Positions 13,336 to 57,478 of a stretch of DNA of 57,478 nucleotides are shown here, in pieces (the stretch's first letter is position 1; the number at the start of each line of letters is the position of its first letter). Origin of the DNA: Bacteroidaceae bacterium (GTDB lineage Bacteria; Bacteroidota; Bacteroidia; Bacteroidales; Bacteroidaceae); the NCBI GenBank assembly GCA_024398495.1, contig JAKSJA010000009.1, positions 1-57,478 of the forward strand, read 5' to 3'. Made by a program: the position numbers and the translations under genes. A model generated the notes under the pieces. It made no database searches. It was not told the origin of the DNA and was given only the letters and a program-made list of their open reading frames with translations.

Positions 13336-13338
13336 ATG

Positions 13339-13387
13339 GTCAACAGTCAACAGTCAACGGTCAACGGCGAACAGATAATGGTCAACA
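13339..13387 (+). repeat. Seven contiguous degenerate 7-bp repeats (GTCAACR)
   Basis: Head-to-tail heptamers are GTCAACA, GTCAACA, GTCAACG, GTCAACG, GCGAACA, GATAATG and GTCAACA. They start 4 nt after the ftsX stop codon. Related heptamers occur at the 3' end of truB (15186-15206). Confidence 0.85.
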
Positions 13388-13414
13388 GCATTAACGATTA
13401 AATAGCAAAATAAA

Positions 13415-14503: not shown

Positions 14504-15227
14504 GGGCGAGGTCATATATTTGAATAAACCTTACAAACTGTCAAGTTTCGGTGCTCTGGCCTTCGTGCGCACTCGGCTGTCACGCAGGTTAGAGGTAAAA
14601 CGTCTAAAGACAGGACATGCAGGAACTCTGGACCCTCTTGCTACGGGTGTCCTCATATTATGTACCGGAAAGGCAACGAAGAAAATAGAGGAGTTCCAGT
14701 ATAAGACGAAAGAATATACAGCAACCCTGCAACTGGGTGCTACGACACTTAGTTACGACATGGAGCATCCTGTTGACAGGACATACCCTGTGGAGCATAT
14801 TACAAGGGAACTGATACAAGAAACTCTGGCTTCTTTTGTCGGTACCATACAGCAGCGCCCTCCGGAATTTTCCGCCTGTAAGGTTGACGGCAAACCCGCC
14901 TACAAACTGGCACGCAAGGGAAAAGAGGTAAAACTGGAACCAAAGACACTGGTCATTGACGAAATAGAACTGACCGACTTCAACCCCGAAAACATGCAGT
15001 TATCAATACGGGTTGTATGCAGCAAGGGTACGTATATCAGGGCATTGGCTCGTGACATTGGCGAGGCATTAGGGTCGGGAGCATATCTGACCGCTCTTTG
15101 CCGCACAAGGATAGGGGATATAACGCTTGATGACTGTCTCACACTTGATGAGTTCAACACATGGCTTGAGAGGTTAGAGCTTAAAGTCAACAGTCAACGG
15201 TCAACGGACAATAGTGAAACCGTATAA
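14490..15227 (+). CDS. truB: tRNA pseudouridine(55) synthase
   Basis: TruB isomerises U55 in the T-loop of tRNAs. The catalytic segment [13 protein letters not shown] near 46-58 contains the nucleophilic Asp, and the [15 protein letters not shown] and [15 protein letters not shown] blocks are conserved. ATG at 14490 is preferred to the TTG at 14484. The last 14 or so residues ([14 protein letters not shown]) are encoded by GTCAACR heptamers and look like a repeat-derived extension beyond the conserved fold. The overlap with uppP implies one transcript. Confidence 0.95.
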
Positions 15228-15252
15228 CCGTAAAACCGCAAAACCGCAAAAC
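15186..15252 (+). repeat. 7-bp and 8-bp tandem repeats at the 3' end of truB
   Basis: Heptamers GTCAACA, GTCAACG, GTCAACG, GACAATA and GTGAAAC (15186-15220) are followed by octamers GTATAACC, GTAAAACC, GCAAAACC and the partial GCAAAAC (15222-15252). The first part encodes the TruB tail and the rest is untranslated. Confidence 0.85.
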
Positions 15253-15273
15253 GACAAATAACATATCAACACA

Positions 15274-51935: not shown

Positions 51936-51965
51936 CGGTTGGTTAGAGGTTAGAGGAGGCTTCGC

Positions 51966-52080
51966 CTACGATACGCCTTTGGCTACGATACGTTATCACT
52001 ACGATACGTTTCACTGCTATAAGTTATCGTAACGCAGTGTATCGTAGAACTTTGTTCGTATCGTAGCGAAGCGTATCGTT
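51966..52080. repeat. Inverted array of six CTACGATACG boxes between convergent genes
   Basis: Three direct copies of CTACGATACG (51966, 51983, 51999) are followed by three inverted near-copies (52039, 52057, 52072). They surround the stem CACTGC…GCAGTG (52012-52017 and 52034-52039), whose loop contains GTTATCGTAAC. The whole region can fold into one long imperfect hairpin between sufE and the outer-membrane gene. It probably also ends transcription from both sides (inference). Confidence 0.8.
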
Positions 52081-52095
52081 ATTAAGATTAACTCT

Positions 52096-54162
52096 CTAAA
52101 TCCTCAACACCACCTGAATGTCAAGGTCCGACTGGCACGAGCCGTCTATCTTCTGGTTGCCACTGCCGATGACACTCCTGTCGAAATACTTTGTCAGCCC
52201 CATCTTTGCCGACAGCGACACAGTCTTACAGATGTCCCATTTCCCTATCACGTTCATCCTCATGCCCTCACCAGAGAAAGAAGGGTAGTAGAAATTATAC
52301 ATCAGGTTCTTCTCATACACATAAATCCTGCTGTCATAACCCGTAGTGCGGAAATACCCCACCATGGCAGACACCTTCAGCACCCTTCTCAAAACATAGT
52401 CAGCCGACTGTGACAGCATATATCCCCACTCATTGCCGTCAAAATGCGTCATGCAGCCATCCACCTCCGTCTTCCACGACAATGGTGACGACAGCCCATA
52501 CGCCCATGTCAGCCTCATCCTGTGCTGAACATCCTTCGCCAAGCCATCACCACTGACATCATCCTTATCCTTCACCTTCAGCCTGTATCTCGCCGACATC
52601 TTCTGCGACCCCTTCTCATACATCACCTGCACCATGTTGTCCGTACCGTATGACGAATTGCTCACACCATACTTCTTCCACGGCGAATAAAACCAGTCAC
52701 TATATACCGTCACATGCCATGCCGCAGATGGTTCCCACTCCGCACCCACGAACACGCCACTCTCGTTCTGCACCCTCCCGCAGTCGGAGAAAGCAGAAGC
52801 ATACAGCGAATTGTACTTGTACGAATAAAACCTCTGCAACACCATCAGTTTCAACCTATACGAACTACTGTACGTAAGTCTGTTTATCGTAGCCAACGCA
52901 CCATCCCCATTCATCGCCGTCTCACCACCGAAGGCAAACCCCTTCAGCGTCATCCCATAGTTCACACCAACATTACGGAAATCCTGTCCCTGCGGATACC
53001 ACCGCTTATATCCATATTCCGTAGCAGAGTCCGGCCGCAGAGCCTTGTCAAGATGCGAATATATCGCCGACACACCAAGCGACAGCCCCTTGTAGGCAAA
53101 CGCCACATTGCCACCCACCGTCTTCTCGTTGAGGTTTCCCTTCTTGTCGAACTCCGTCCTCGTGCGGTGATAACCATTCGTCACTATCGTCTGCACACAT
53201 GTCGAGTCACCCTTCTTCAACGTAGCATCCATATCCCTGTTCGAGAGGAACACGCTCACCCGCACATTCCTGTGCAACGCCACCGTTGCCGCAACACCGT
53301 TGAAATAACCACTCTCCGACAGCGACGAATGTGCACGGATATTGTTACCTCCGCTGCCACGCCCCAGAGACGACAGCACCGACAGTTTACCGAAACTCAT
53401 CCCGTTGTTCACCACCAGTCCCATGCCGAACCCCACCTTGTAGCACCCCACAGCAAGAGTCTTCAGAACTCCCACATTCCTCAGCAGCAGATAGTAGTTA
53501 TAATGGTCGTAGCCCCACTTGTTCTCATGGAAGAAAGGCTCCCCCGCATCCTTCGAAGCAGTAATCCCCGCCGTCACATCCTCACCATATCGGAAGGCAT
53601 ACCGCAGCGAGTGTTTAAGACCGTCACCGAGATAGTTGCCATTCGCCACCCCCTGCCGTTCATACATAGGCACACCCATCGTCGCCACCACCTCATGACC
53701 GCCATACCTCAACACATCCTTCAGTGGAGGCACACACCGTTTTCCTTCGTCACCGACAAACACAAAGTTCAGCAGCGACACCCTGTCCTCATACCCAAGA
53801 GAAGGAATCATCATCAGTTCCGCCGTTGACTTCATTCCCCCGTAACGGTGAATATAATACAGAATATCCTCAATCTGCTGTTCCGACAGGAAAGGCAGCA
53901 CCTGCAAGTCCTCCACGCTCGCCTCGTTGATGTTCATAGGATGTCGGTACAAGTTTACCAACGACTCATACACCCCCTGCCACGTATCGCTGTCAAAGTC
54001 CTCAAGAGAGAAATACGACAACAGCAGAGCCTCCTCCGCCCTGCTGTCATCATCCTTTGGCGTATTCCCCGTCTGCCCACAAACAAAAGCAACGCCTATC
54101 AGCCACATCGCCCCCAGCACGCCACACCTTCTTATTAGTAAAAAATATCGATTATTTCCCAA
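52096..54162 (-). CDS. Outer-membrane protein with N-terminal helix-hairpin-helix (ComEA-like) domain
   Basis: The 688-aa protein has a signal-like N-terminus (hydrophobic LGAMWLIGVAFVCGQ, about 16-30) and a helix-hairpin-helix pair (MNINEASVEDLQVLPFLSEQQ and later ELMMIPSLGYEDRVSLL, about 73-130). The rest, about 550 residues, alternates aromatic and polar residues and ends VVLRI, as expected for an outer-membrane beta-barrel. Such HhH-barrel proteins are common in Bacteroidota and have no established function; DNA uptake has been suggested only from the HhH. The start overlaps the Fic gene end by 28 nt. Confidence 0.8.
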   Translation of the reverse strand: MGNNRYFLLIRRCGVLGAMWLIGVAFVCGQTGNTPKDDDSRAEEALLLSYFSLEDFDSDTWQGVYESLVNLYRHPMNINEASVEDLQVLPFLSEQQIEDILYYIHRYGGMKSTAELMMIPSLGYEDRVSLLNFVFVGDEGKRCVPPLKDVLRYGGHEVVATMGVPMYERQGVANGNYLGDGLKHSLRYAFRYGEDVTAGITASKDAGEPFFHENKWGYDHYNYYLLLRNVGVLKTLAVGCYKVGFGMGLVVNNGMSFGKLSVLSSLGRGSGGNNIRAHSSLSESGYFNGVAATVALHRNVRVSVFLSNRDMDATLKKGDSTCVQTIVTNGYHRTRTEFDKKGNLNEKTVGGNVAFAYKGLSLGVSAIYSHLDKALRPDSATEYGYKRWYPQGQDFRNVGVNYGMTLKGFAFGGETAMNGDGALATINRLTYSSSYRLKLMVLQRFYSYKYNSLYASAFSDCGRVQNESGVFVGAEWEPSAAWHVTVYSDWFYSPWKKYGVSNSSYGTDNMVQVMYEKGSQKMSARYRLKVKDKDDVSGDGLAKDVQHRMRLTWAYGLSSPLSWKTEVDGCMTHFDGNEWGYMLSQSADYVLRRVLKVSAMVGYFRTTGYDSRIYVYEKNLMYNFYYPSFSGEGMRMNVIGKWDICKTVSLSAKMGLTKYFDRSVIGSGNQKIDGSCQSDLDIQVVLRI

Positions 54163-55124
54163 TGTCCGTTTTTTGTTGCTCCCACATGATGAATCAAACC
54201 ATCTGCAGTCATCTTTGCCACTATACGTTCACATTGTCGTAGTGTTATACCTATCATCTCAGCCATATCCTTCATGGATACATTTGGAGTATTGCGTATG
54301 ATAGACAAGATTTTTAGTTCATTTCCACCGACATTTCCACCGACATTTCTACCGACATTTGTCAGTTTCTCACCCTGATGAGTTTTTAGAGCAGTCAGTA
54401 TTTCCCGAAGCATAAAGTCTATGAATGGTCCGGAGTCAGCCTTTCTTGAACTTTCACCGATTGCATCGTAATAAGCCTGTTGATTTGCATATACCATATT
54501 TTCCACAGGAAGATGTTCAAAGAGCGGATGCAATCGTCCCAGTATAAGCGATTGCCAAAAGCGTCCCATGCGCCCGTTACCATCTATGAAAGGATGTATG
54601 AACTCAAACTCATAGTGGAAAACACAAGAGCGTATCAGCAGATGATCCTTACTTTTTCTTAACCATTCAAACAAGTCATTAATCAGCAAAGGTACTCTGT
54701 CAGCAGGAGGAGCAAAATGCTCACAACCATTCTCACTAAACACGCCAACATCACCACTTCTAAAATTACCCGCTCCGTCCACCAACGCTTCCATCATCAC
54801 TCCGTGTGCACGCAACAAGTCCTTTACCTTGAAAGCATCGAGTGTAGAATACATCTCGTATGTGCGCAGAGCATTTTTCACCTCCTGAATATCGCGCAAC
54901 GGAGCCACCACCTTTTTTCCATTGATGATGTCGCTCACCTGTCCCTCCGTCAGTCGGTTACCCTCTATAGCAAGTGAACTATGAATGGTGCTTATGCGGT
55001 TTGCCTTACGCAGTCGCAATCCATCCTCTTGCTCCAGACGAATGACGTATCGCTCTATCTGAGCAGATATTTCTGCTATCATATTGATAGCTTCGGCTGA
55101 TATTGTATATGGTGGTATGTACAT
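54135..55124 (-). CDS. Fic family protein (class II) with C-terminal winged helix
   Basis: Fic enzymes transfer AMP or other phosphate groups from nucleotides to target proteins. The 329-aa protein has the complete active-site motif HPFIDGNGRMGR (177-188) and an N-terminal inhibitory helix motif Ser50-x3-Glu54-Gly55, which makes it class II and self-inhibited. Residues about 265-329 are a winged helix (MKDMAEMIGITLRQCERIVAKM), typical of Fic/DOC proteins that bind DNA. A 12-bp tandem repeat encodes NVG(R/G) three times in the linker. No separate antitoxin gene is seen. The target is unknown. Confidence 0.92.
   Translation of the reverse strand: MYIPPYTISAEAINMIAEISAQIERYVIRLEQEDGLRLRKANRISTIHSSLAIEGNRLTEGQVSDIINGKKVVAPLRDIQEVKNALRTYEMYSTLDAFKVKDLLRAHGVMMEALVDGAGNFRSGDVGVFSENGCEHFAPPADRVPLLINDLFEWLRKSKDHLLIRSCVFHYEFEFIHPFIDGNGRMGRFWQSLILGRLHPLFEHLPVENMVYANQQAYYDAIGESSRKADSGPFIDFMLREILTALKTHQGEKLTNVGRNVGGNVGGNELKILSIIRNTPNVSMKDMAEMIGITLRQCERIVAKMTADGLIHHVGATKNGHWEIIDIFY
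54320..54355 (-). repeat. Three 12-bp tandem repeats in the Fic linker
   Basis: Plus-strand units CATTTCCACCGA, CATTTCCACCGA and CATTTCTACCGA are contiguous and encode a Gly/Asn hinge between the Fic core and the winged helix. Copy-number change would alter linker length by four residues without a frameshift. Confidence 0.85.
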
Positions 55125-55358: not shown

Positions 55359-56711
55359 TTATAACAACCCACCCATATACAACGGAAGATAGATTACACC
55401 ATCCTCCACCTTTAAGTCACTCGTATGCAAAACAATAGGTTCTGCAACATACTTGTCAAACTTCTTTGCGAAGCGTCCTATAGAGGTCAATGTATAGCGA
55501 GGAGTTGACTTAACCTCAATCGGATGAATGTTGTGTCGGCTACTTATTACTGGCTTTGGCACAAGGAAGTCAATCTCCATTCGTTCCTCTGCCACCGTCT
55601 TTTTGTACGAGGAGAAGAAGTACAACCTATGGCCTGCCGTCCTTAGCATCTGAGCCACCAGATTCTCCACCAGCATGCCTTTGTTTACTTCCAGCTTGTC
55701 GTGCATCAACTTCCGGTACAGTTCCTCAGCTTTGATGGCTGCTTCCGTAAACGCATGACTGATCAGCAAACCGGTGTCTGCCATATACAATTTACGAGAA
55801 GCATCCTCCACTTTCATTTCCAAACCTACGCTCGGTTCCGCAGCAGCAAGACACGTGTTTACCACCCTCGATTCGTCTAACCAGAAGAATGCCATTTCTA
55901 CATTTCTTCCACGTGTCCCTTTGCCCAATGCTGACAATTTGAACTTCTTCTCATGTCGTTGCAGTTGCGATGGGATTGTATCAAAAATCTTCGTCACCCT
56001 CGCCTCCTGTCCTTTGGCATATTTACTGATGTCGCTTCGGTAGAGTGCCAGGATGTTGCGTTTCGTTCTGTCCACCTCGTCAAAGTCCTTCGACTCTACC
56101 CATTCCGCCACAGCCTGTGGCATTCCGCCCACTATCATATAGAGCCGCAGGTAATCCATCATTTTTCTGTGGAGCGACTGCCCCAAAGGCTTTCTTCCGG
56201 CAAAGCACTCCCTCACATAATCCATCATCATGTCATCACCCAATGCCCACATGAACTCCTCCAGATCCATTGGATGCATGTCGATTCTGTGTTCCTCGCT
56301 CGGGATGTTTATGTCCTTCACATTCGCATTGATGCTCATCAGCGACCCCGTTTCGATATATGCATACCTTCCGTCCTGCACCAGATACTTTATCATCTCG
56401 CGTGCTTCAGGGAACTTCTGAATCTCATCAAACACAATGAGCGACTCCCTGGGATAAAGTTTTTTGCCCGTTTCCAATTGCAGGTGCATGAAGAACTCAT
56501 CCCACTTGCCTCTGTATGTGCGGAAAACATCGAGCATAGTGTCCGAAGCTTCAGAGAAGTCAATCAGGATATACGACCTGTATTCCTTCCTTGCAAATTC
56601 CTCCACAATCCAGCTCTTGCCCACACGTCTGGCACCATCTATCAGCAAAGCCTCCTTCTGGCTTCGCTTTTCTTTCCATTCCAGCAGTTGGTCATATATT
56701 TTGCGTCTCAT
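55359..56711 (-). CDS. AAA ATPase of the DUF4143 type
   Basis: The 450-aa protein has Walker A GARRVGKS (26-33), Walker B LIVFDE (91-96) and a sensor-like ETGSLMS (about 118-124), followed by a helical region and a C-terminal PD-(D/E)XK-like fold (MEIDFLV…HPIEVKS, about 385-415). The family is abundant and mobile in Bacteroidota, with unknown function; defence or membrane-associated roles have been proposed for it. The nuclease-like Asp and Glu-x-Lys residues are intact. It has its own promoter and is flanked on both sides by shared repeats, which suggests an accessory cassette (inference). Confidence 0.88.
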   Translation of the reverse strand: MRRKIYDQLLEWKEKRSQKEALLIDGARRVGKSWIVEEFARKEYRSYILIDFSEASDTMLDVFRTYRGKWDEFFMHLQLETGKKLYPRESLIVFDEIQKFPEAREMIKYLVQDGRYAYIETGSLMSINANVKDINIPSEEHRIDMHPMDLEEFMWALGDDMMMDYVRECFAGRKPLGQSLHRKMMDYLRLYMIVGGMPQAVAEWVESKDFDEVDRTKRNILALYRSDISKYAKGQEARVTKIFDTIPSQLQRHEKKFKLSALGKGTRGRNVEMAFFWLDESRVVNTCLAAAEPSVGLEMKVEDASRKLYMADTGLLISHAFTEAAIKAEELYRKLMHDKLEVNKGMLVENLVAQMLRTAGHRLYFFSSYKKTVAEERMEIDFLVPKPVISSRHNIHPIEVKSTPRYTLTSIGRFAKKFDKYVAEPIVLHTSDLKVEDGVIYLPLYMGGLL

Positions 56712-57251
56712 AATTCTATTATTCTATAGTTTCTATTGATTCCTGATTGGAATTGAATGATTGTAATACACCAAACCAAGGATATCTTTTTGCTCAAATA
56801 TACACCATTCCAAGGTTTAATATGGTCGCAAAATTACACATATTTCTACGATTACCAAAGTTTCTTGATGAGTTTTAACACATTATTATGTAATTTGCGT
56901 CATTTGCAAGGAACGGAGAAAGAAGGAAGGGGAAAGCAACGGAGAAGTAAACAGGGTCACGGAACCTGTCCCTATGCCCCCCTATTATGTCTCTCGCAGA
57001 GAGCAGAGAGCGCAGAGATTTTTTTCCATACGAGCAGAGAATGCAGAGAGTAAATACACTTTTAATTATTCATTATTAATTATTAATTTCCCTATAGGGA
57101 ACTCTGCGTAGCACCTGAAAGGTGCGCCTCTGCCCTCTGCGTAAAAATCTTGAGCCATCGCAAAGATGGCTTGGATAGAAGTATATGACTGTTGGAAGTT
57201 AACTTGCATAAAGGCATATACTTATATACATAACCTCGTAAGAGACAAGAT
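56712..57251. other. Repeat-rich region without genes, upstream of the ATPase
   Basis: Beyond the ATPase promoter this stretch has no convincing gene. It holds GGTCACGGAACCTGTCCCTATG split across 56955-56976 (matching 55324-55345 with one change), GCAGAGAG-type short repeats (56988-57050), the 17-bp match to 55256-55272 at 57082-57098, and small hairpins GCACCT-GAA-AGGTGC (57113-57127) and AGCCATC-GCAAA-GATGGCT (57154-57172). AAGTTAACTT (57196-57205) is a perfect palindrome. The short frame 57092-57343 on the minus strand is repeat-encoded and is not called. Confidence 0.6.
56829..56859 (-). promoter_or_regulatory. Bacteroidota-type promoter for the AAA ATPase
   Basis: On the minus strand TTTG (56859-56856), a 19-nt spacer and TAATTTTG (56836-56829) match the consensus exactly. 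The predicted leader is about 110 nt. Confidence 0.7.
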
Positions 57252-57253
57252 TT

Positions 57254-57478
57254 TCTCTGCGAGAGGCTAAAAATCATTTGCGAGAGTCTTATTTTCATTT
57301 GCGAGAGGATTAAAAACTTCACTAACTTTTCGTAAAACTTCACTAAGTTTTAGTGAAATGTTTATGAAGTTCCGACCAATTCTTTATGAAGTTGCTGGCA
57401 ATTCTTTATGAAGTTGCTGGCAATTCTTTGTGTCGTGTAGAGCCATTCTTTGTGTCGCATAGAACATTTCTTTATGTC
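57254..57478. repeat. Mosaic tandem array of 21-22 bp units, running off the window end
   Basis: About ten contiguous units can be laid out with lengths 21, 21, 21, 21, then six of 22, and a partial eleventh. Units fall into groups that share their first 8-11 nt: (C/A)T(C/T)TGCGAGAG three times, TTCACTAA(C/G)TTTT twice, TTTATGAAGTT three times, TTTGTGTCG twice, then TTTATGTC at the edge. The second half varies more and usually ends AAAAC or ATTC. Two units are identical. TTCACTAA-GTT-TTAGTGAA (57339-57357) is a perfect hairpin. The 22-bp period and many stops exclude coding. Confidence 0.85.

Follow-up and report, generated by a model that had tools for sequence, protein, structure and literature searches.

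A dispersed intergenic repeat with graded classes of 22-bp units in the Equicola lineage of Bacteroidaceae

The array at the end of the contig

The window, that is, the whole stretch of DNA analysed (57,478 bp, contig C37 of a Bacteroidaceae MAG), ends in a tandem array which is real, occupies positions 57254-57478 (225 bp) and extends beyond the window. The contig terminates inside the array, at 57478, and homologous copies at other loci continue for many further units, in agreement with the earlier note on this DNA, in which the array was said to run on past the end. Compared with itself at a shift of 22 nt, 57254-57478 has an identity of 0.537 (0.436 for a shift of 21 nt), compared to a maximum of 0.382 among 2,000 shuffles; in 200-bp stretches of the rest of the window, the best values are 0.365 (lag 22) and 0.415 (lag 21). 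By TRF, 57258-57478 splits into four arrays that abut one another: the two nearer to the element centre have period 21, the two outer ones have period 22, and all are read on the minus strand. The array adjoining the centre is made of 2.8 copies of a 21-bp unit with a CTCTCGCA core (57258-57316, score 67), and the next one of 2.2 copies of a 21-bp unit with a TTAGTGAAG core (57313-57358, score 71). They are followed by 3.1 copies of a 22-bp unit with a TTCATAAAG core (57361-57429, score 110) and by 2.6 copies of a 22-bp unit with a GACACAAAG / GACATAAAG core (57421-57478, period 22, score 74), which run off the contig end. The sequence confirms the four group-specific half-units that the earlier note read on the minus strand.

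The element centre (57100-57264, unstranded) consists of a REP-like palindrome (57100-57147), the presence of which near the array had been correctly noticed, and of the stretch leading to the first CTCTCGCA unit. Its matches are dispersed genome-wide: most of 57102-57264 is matched at 83-98% in contigs C19, C18, C6, C16 and C4 of the same MAG, which also holds many shorter matches to the REP only. The window array is the truncated end of one copy of a dispersed element, sited between genes. The copy seems to represent a second subfamily, which has 21-bp units close to the centre.

The neighbouring gene (55359-56711, minus strand) encodes an AAA_14/DUF4143 ATPase (Pfam AAA_14 2.7e-21, DUF4143 5.2e-21); it adjoins the array and was judged to lie outside the element. 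The functional link with this ATPase that had been considered finds no support, as the proteins encoded beside ten other copies are unrelated (glycoside hydrolase 97, F420 ligase-type, NusG-type, OmpA/PD40, sodium:solute symporter, riboflavin kinase/FAD synthetase, Sel1-repeat, and three with no Pfam match). The ATPase is most likely a bystander.

Other repeats occur in the window. A second intergenic dispersed repeat (51941-52092) includes a 16-bp tandem (51983-52028) and is matched many times in the Equicola genome. GTCAACA/GTCAACG heptamers and 8-bp AAACCGTA/AAAACCAC repeats are found at 13338-13389 and 15186-15258. Within a Fic/DOC gene (54135-55124), a 12-bp tandem at 54320-54360 encodes repeated NVGG/NVGR.

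Architecture of the element

The best complete copy, L020 (contig C34), is about 1 kb long and is composed of graded classes of 22-bp units, a REP-bearing centre and an inverted second array. Along the first array (A) the class changes stepwise, from ACCTGACGTG to GTCGGGCAG, CCGTAGAT, GTCACAAAG, TTCATAAAG and CTCTCGCA. The second array (B) runs in the opposite sense and contains TTCCAAC and CAATTGCGG classes. The outer half-unit GATGTGTGCAACC is common to array A and to the reverse complement of the outer units of array B.

A motif map shows that, over the length available in each stretch, the unit classes follow an order common to the loci and to both species, and the TTCATAAAG-core class of the window takes the same place in this order as at other loci. 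The group succession and shared half-units first noticed in the window recur in this common order at many loci of the two species; the absence of a conserved order, regarded in the earlier note as an argument against function, is not what the comparison of loci and species gave. The family is a real, organised, lineage-specific dispersed repeat, with graded classes in a common order.

Some copies depart from this plan. In a third type, represented by L022, the units on one side are opposite in sense to those on the other and all keep a single 22-bp register; the counterpart of L022 in the other species includes some 23-bp units in mid-array. In one copy (L023), GTCAAC-type heptamers lie between the two arrays in place of the REP centre. 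Read by eye, 20 A-side ends show no common terminus.

Another element, with units of about 11 bp of the GTCACTAAGTC type, inverted arms and a centre of about 200 bp, is present at L009:590-1000, L012:950-1250 and L055:880-1280; it is found near some of the 22-bp arrays.

Distribution in genomes

The MAG of the window (1.43 Mb, 37 contigs, 62.7% complete) gives 50 matches with the last 779 bp of the window and 48 with a long copy, and the genome of Candidatus Equicola stercoris, a Bacteroidaceae MAG from horse faeces (PMC8957277), gives 52 matches to the element. The number of loci is a lower bound, and the loci were picked by their similarity to the element. With array limits defined by lag-22 identity, runs of at least 100 bp were found in 28 of the 35 stretches fetched from the own MAG (about 10.8 kb in total; L003 lies outside these counts) and in 30 of 32 Equicola stretches (about 10.0 kb), the latter count including L092, a second copy of the L076 place. 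L093, which is a distinct place, is absent from the run counts, the class-order map and the column-variation, indel, phase and consensus-fold analyses, and L112-L118 are outside these counts.

The element has a narrow range. A two-unit pattern scan of species genomes (84,980 as described) returned 25 stretches. Candidatus Equicola stercoris accounts for 18; of the remaining seven, six hold two to five units and L074 has 1.9 copies by TRF alone. Among 398 sampled genomes of the window genus, three match: the own MAG, a record which, judging by its contig positions, is the same Equicola genome, and a genome (G024) with one 27-bp match, which is a chance match with no tandem array around it. The own MAG is the sole match among 60 relatives, itself included. 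Searches of plasmids (query L020:440-1440), of phages (query L020:586-960) and, with one pattern, of viral contigs gave no match at the sensitivity used. A second viral pattern matched one contig, which has three unrelated 22-bp iteron-like repeats and was rejected. Short 22-bp runs with a KTCAYAAAGAA half occur in other Bacteroidota, but they say little because the search pattern itself demands the 22-bp spacing.

The copies sit between long ORFs; ORFs of 92-127 aa overlap the arrays in L019, L020, L025, L028 and L044. A protein-coding role of the arrays was dropped by reasoning, since 22 is not a multiple of 3 and indels of 44 bp shift the frame. At least ten contigs of the own MAG begin or end in or very near arrays (C2, C10, C12, C18, C23, C28, C32, C33, C36 and C37). 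The assembly of this MAG seems to break at the arrays, which therefore matter for assembly.

The 22-bp register

With all arrays pooled, the identity falls from 0.634 at lag 22 through 0.57 (lag 44) and 0.51 (lag 66) to 0.413 at lag 132; the other lags tested give 0.22-0.26 (0.286 and 0.277 at lags 19 and 25 in a separate run). The decrease from lag 22 to lag 132 is what would be expected of tandem duplication, which is one half of the earlier proposal of stepwise duplication at one end. The other half, growth at one end, is unsupported because whole units have been gained or lost at several interior places of both arms.

In 31 copies aligned to L020, all 19 nonzero net array indels (obtained from 26 raw gaps by merging gaps within 45 bp) are multiples of 22, compared to 1,471 array mismatches. 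The centre was intended as a control; it has 24 raw gaps in three copies and gives no contrast to the arrays, because its net changes too are 22, 22 and 0. Counted modulo 22, the last TTCATAAAG-type unit and the REP are 14 apart in the seven first-subfamily copies in which the two were found, 13 apart in a second-subfamily copy and 8 apart in the window copy. The phase between arrays A and B is 2 in six copies and 3 in two, the eight copies including the one with the replaced centre. A register that spans the array, the REP and the second array could result from selection of the spacing, but the data are suggestive only because several copies share ancestry, the mismatches, indels and phases being non-independent. 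The strict 22-bp register across unlike units is the most interesting point of the family.

Variation between copies and between species

How much the copies vary at a site depends on its place within the 22-bp unit in the outer part of array A (rotation p 0.0004) and in array B (p 0.0002); six control periods give p of 0.13 or more in these arms. There is no such dependence in inner A (p 0.86) or in the centre (p 0.72). A cruder test, with one copy as the reference, gives p values of 0.013 in outer A, 0.95 in inner A, 0.23 in A as a whole, 0.005 in B and 0.77 in the centre. In the outer arms, the distinction of conserved and variable unit parts exceeds a mere effect of duplication, and the inner arm gives no such signal. 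The inner units are nearly invariant across about 20 copies of the two species: in four consecutive inner units (L020:630-717), the variation between copies is 0.01-0.06, compared to 0.2-0.35 in the outer A units.

Arrays stand at the same places in the two sister species. The flanks of eight orthologous pairs diverge by 3-11%. In the seven comparable pairs, the arrays diverge by 5-23%, more than the flank in six of seven, and of the seven internal array gaps, four measure 22 bp exactly, one is of 1 bp and two are of 2 bp, the last two cancelling each other. The eighth pair, L042/L054, shows a divergence of 31% and many irregular gaps because different element arms adjoin the shared flank.

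A comparison of 18 rows of the own MAG with 19 of Equicola reveals no column that is fixed differently between the species, and the divergence between species is about that within species. This suggests that the copies are older than the species split. At one site, the flanks are 91 and 98% identical and the array only 69%, the best relative of the array (84%) being at another locus; at the L026/L063 site, the type of array differs between the species. Because the identity or type of the array departs from the flanks at these conserved sites, arrays may have been exchanged between loci by recombination or conversion.

Possible binding sites or an inert minisatellite

We tentatively prefer to see the element as a non-autonomous, dispersed, foldback-like repeat of the Equicola lineage, the arrays of which would be phased DNA binding sites. 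Its arms would have grown by local tandem duplication. Each unit would be a DNA-level site for a protein, part of it contacted and part of it free, and a multimer of this putative protein, transposase-like or nucleoid, would sit in register along the array. Since the units are proposed to be DNA sites bound in register, the element would work like a minisatellite MITE of the BrickBuilt type or a foldback element, and unlike a guide-RNA array. The dispersed copies, the common class order, the inverted arm, the identity peaks at lag 22 and its multiples, net array indels in multiples of 22 only, the periodic variation of the outer arms, the low variation of the inner units (0.01-0.06, with orthologous flanks at 0.03-0.11), the array-to-REP distance of 14 in seven copies and the lack of an excess of compensatory changes (see below) all argue for this proposal, and the protein- or RNA-binding ladder suggested earlier is compatible with the sequences.

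Several observations do not fit the binding-site proposal. Phase-specific variation is missing from inner A and, measured with one copy as the reference, from array A as a whole, the net changes of the centre are also 22 or 0, array divergence exceeds that of the flank in six of seven comparable orthologous pairs, the window copy is off the array-to-REP register (8), the consensus fold is in excess on one strand, and there is neither a partner nor a common A-side end. A single binder is also difficult to conceive, as the unit classes are so unlike that one sequence-specific protein could hardly bind them all. A more speculative version, which we consider doubtful, is that of a two-turn DNA lattice: the 22-bp spacing would be selected more than any one sequence, across unlike classes and the non-repetitive centre, through a putative filament- or scaffold-forming protein lying along the whole 1-kb element.

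The strongest competitor, possible even if we think it rather unlikely, is an inert minisatellite, in which 22-bp copies arise by slippage and diverge by mutation, old copies having been spread by recombination, so that the order of the classes reflects shared ancestry only. The decrease of similarity with unit distance is what such a process predicts, slippage alone also yields whole-unit indels, and the unrelated genes beside ten copies agree with it. So do the six of seven comparable pairs in which the array diverges more than the flank, and the conserved site where the array is 69% identical between species and the flanks 91-98%. An inert array accounts less well for the phase-specific variation of the outer arms, for inner units that are near-invariant in about 20 copies of two species, and for the fact that there are hardly any net indels other than those of 22 bp.

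Possible mobility and candidate partners

The arrays could also be the subterminal ends, with many transposase-binding sites, of a foldback element or MITE that is moved in trans now or was until recently, which we regard as improbable. The inverted arms with the common outer half-unit GATGTGTGCAACC and the dispersal of the copies between long ORFs are consistent with such mobility. So is the L042/L054 site: at L042:2850-3140 and L054:2200-2480, the same gene flank in the two species is adjoined by a different arm, as if by inversion, and the own contig ends inside the array. The 20 A-side ends without a common end, however, are not what is expected of a mobile element, and the lack of species-fixed columns gives no sign of a recent species-specific spread.

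Nor was a binding protein, a transposase or an autonomous partner found for the element. In the own MAG, one Y1 transposase is over the cut-off and its 1,895-bp locus has no array, and the Equicola genome (G060) has one weak Y1 match, under the cut-off. A RAYT as the partner of the REP-bearing centre was dropped, the sole Y1 locus over the cut-off in the own MAG being free of arrays.

Readings as a structured RNA or a guide array

A less probable reading still is that the element gives rise to a long RNA, structured or processed, of which the units would be modules. Folds are indeed more stable than those of dinucleotide shuffles, for the window (z -5.74 on the plus strand, -4.35 on the minus strand), for array A of L020 (z -2.77 and -2.88) and for eight whole elements (12 shuffles each, z -2.8 to -6.6). 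The consensus fold of the inner array also has a lower energy than column shuffles, more so on the reverse strand (-63.9 vs -45.3, sd 3.5) than on the forward strand (-52.3 vs -41.8, sd 5.8). However, the fold excess is seen on both strands, each of which is the better one in four of the eight elements, and there is no excess of compensatory changes in five regions, each region having 0-4 double-sided pair types, about as many as column shuffles. A search of Rfam with L020 and L001 gave four matches at E up to 1, all far under the gathering scores. On balance, we consider DNA-level sites more probable than an RNA.

A dyad symmetry every 11 bp as a general feature of the arrays was rejected, as 94 array rows have a mean z of 2.78 compared to 2.45 for 300 simulated arrays. 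The simulated 95% point (3.54) is exceeded by 18 of the 94 rows, mostly TTCATAAAG-rich, although some stretches are counted twice and 4 of the 18 are repeats of one place; the window array, at 3.0, is below it. The dyad symmetry may hold for a subset of arrays only.

A guide-RNA array of the TIGR or CRISPR kind is very improbable: the alternation of conserved and variable halves recalls repeats and spacers, and one weak match to Rfam is to a box C/D RNA (sR41, 23.2 bits compared to a gathering score of 54), but the cores drift along one array instead of being identical, the variable halves are inherited rather than replaced, and no Nop domain was found in the 62.7% complete MAG (PF01798; 0 of 1, compared to 4 of 14 in a ring of control genomes). 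The repeat-plus-variable layout put forward in the earlier note finds no support as a guide layout, since point changes distinguish homologous variable halves and no column is fixed differently between the species. Nor does the array show the near-identical repeats and unrelated spacers of a CRISPR, a kind that the earlier note had set aside: the cores drift and the variable parts are homologous between copies.

Comparison with known systems

Bacterial intergenic minisatellites are, in our view, often taken as noise or as typing markers. With its graded classes in a common order, its almost exclusively whole-unit indels and the position-specific constraint of its outer arms, this family, which occupies dozens of loci in each of the two sister genomes taken together, is a natural system for asking if the spacing as such can be under selection and by which protein or RNA the arrays are read. 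Among the literature matches listed, no report of the family was found.

TIGR arrays (PMC12045711) resemble the present units in their short alternating conserved and variable parts; their edge and loop repeats are conserved per locus and lie beside Nop-domain genes, whereas the present cores drift. The TAACTGA heptamers (PMC4679880) are likewise intergenic direct repeats of short units which vary by whole-unit indels, occur in some Bacteroidetes too and are described as having no known role. Unlike the present family, they are made of 7-nt units of a single sequence and are located just upstream of start codons in several genomes.

The REP and REPIN palindromes (PMC3116915, PMC3733652) share with the present centre a short multicopy palindrome. 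In REP/RAYT systems, a Y1 transposase lies beside copies, and none was found beside the present ones. To our knowledge, arrays of the 22-bp type are not part of REP elements.

The foldback transposons Tetris and Galileo (PMC4079207, PMC3573991) have inverted arms of tandem short repeats around a centre, as here. They are eukaryotic DNA transposons, whereas no transposase was found for the present family.

The closest known kind is BrickBuilt (PMC4596501), a MITE with a minisatellite described in Porphyromonas gingivalis and its relative P. gulae, which are Bacteroidales; it is present as 19 dispersed intergenic copies of up to 991 nt. Its tandem units are spacerless and 23 nt long, near the 22 nt found here, and comprise conserved and less conserved parts, as in the present family, which also consists of many dispersed intergenic copies with a narrow host range. 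Bidirectional promoter activity is a further trait of the BrickBuilt type. BrickBuilt is bounded by a leader and by a tail, which have IS5-like terminal inverted repeats; no common terminus was found among the 20 A-side ends read here. It repeats one unit sequence, with 0-11% mismatches, while the present family is distinguished by differing unit classes in a common order and by two inverted arms around a REP-bearing centre.
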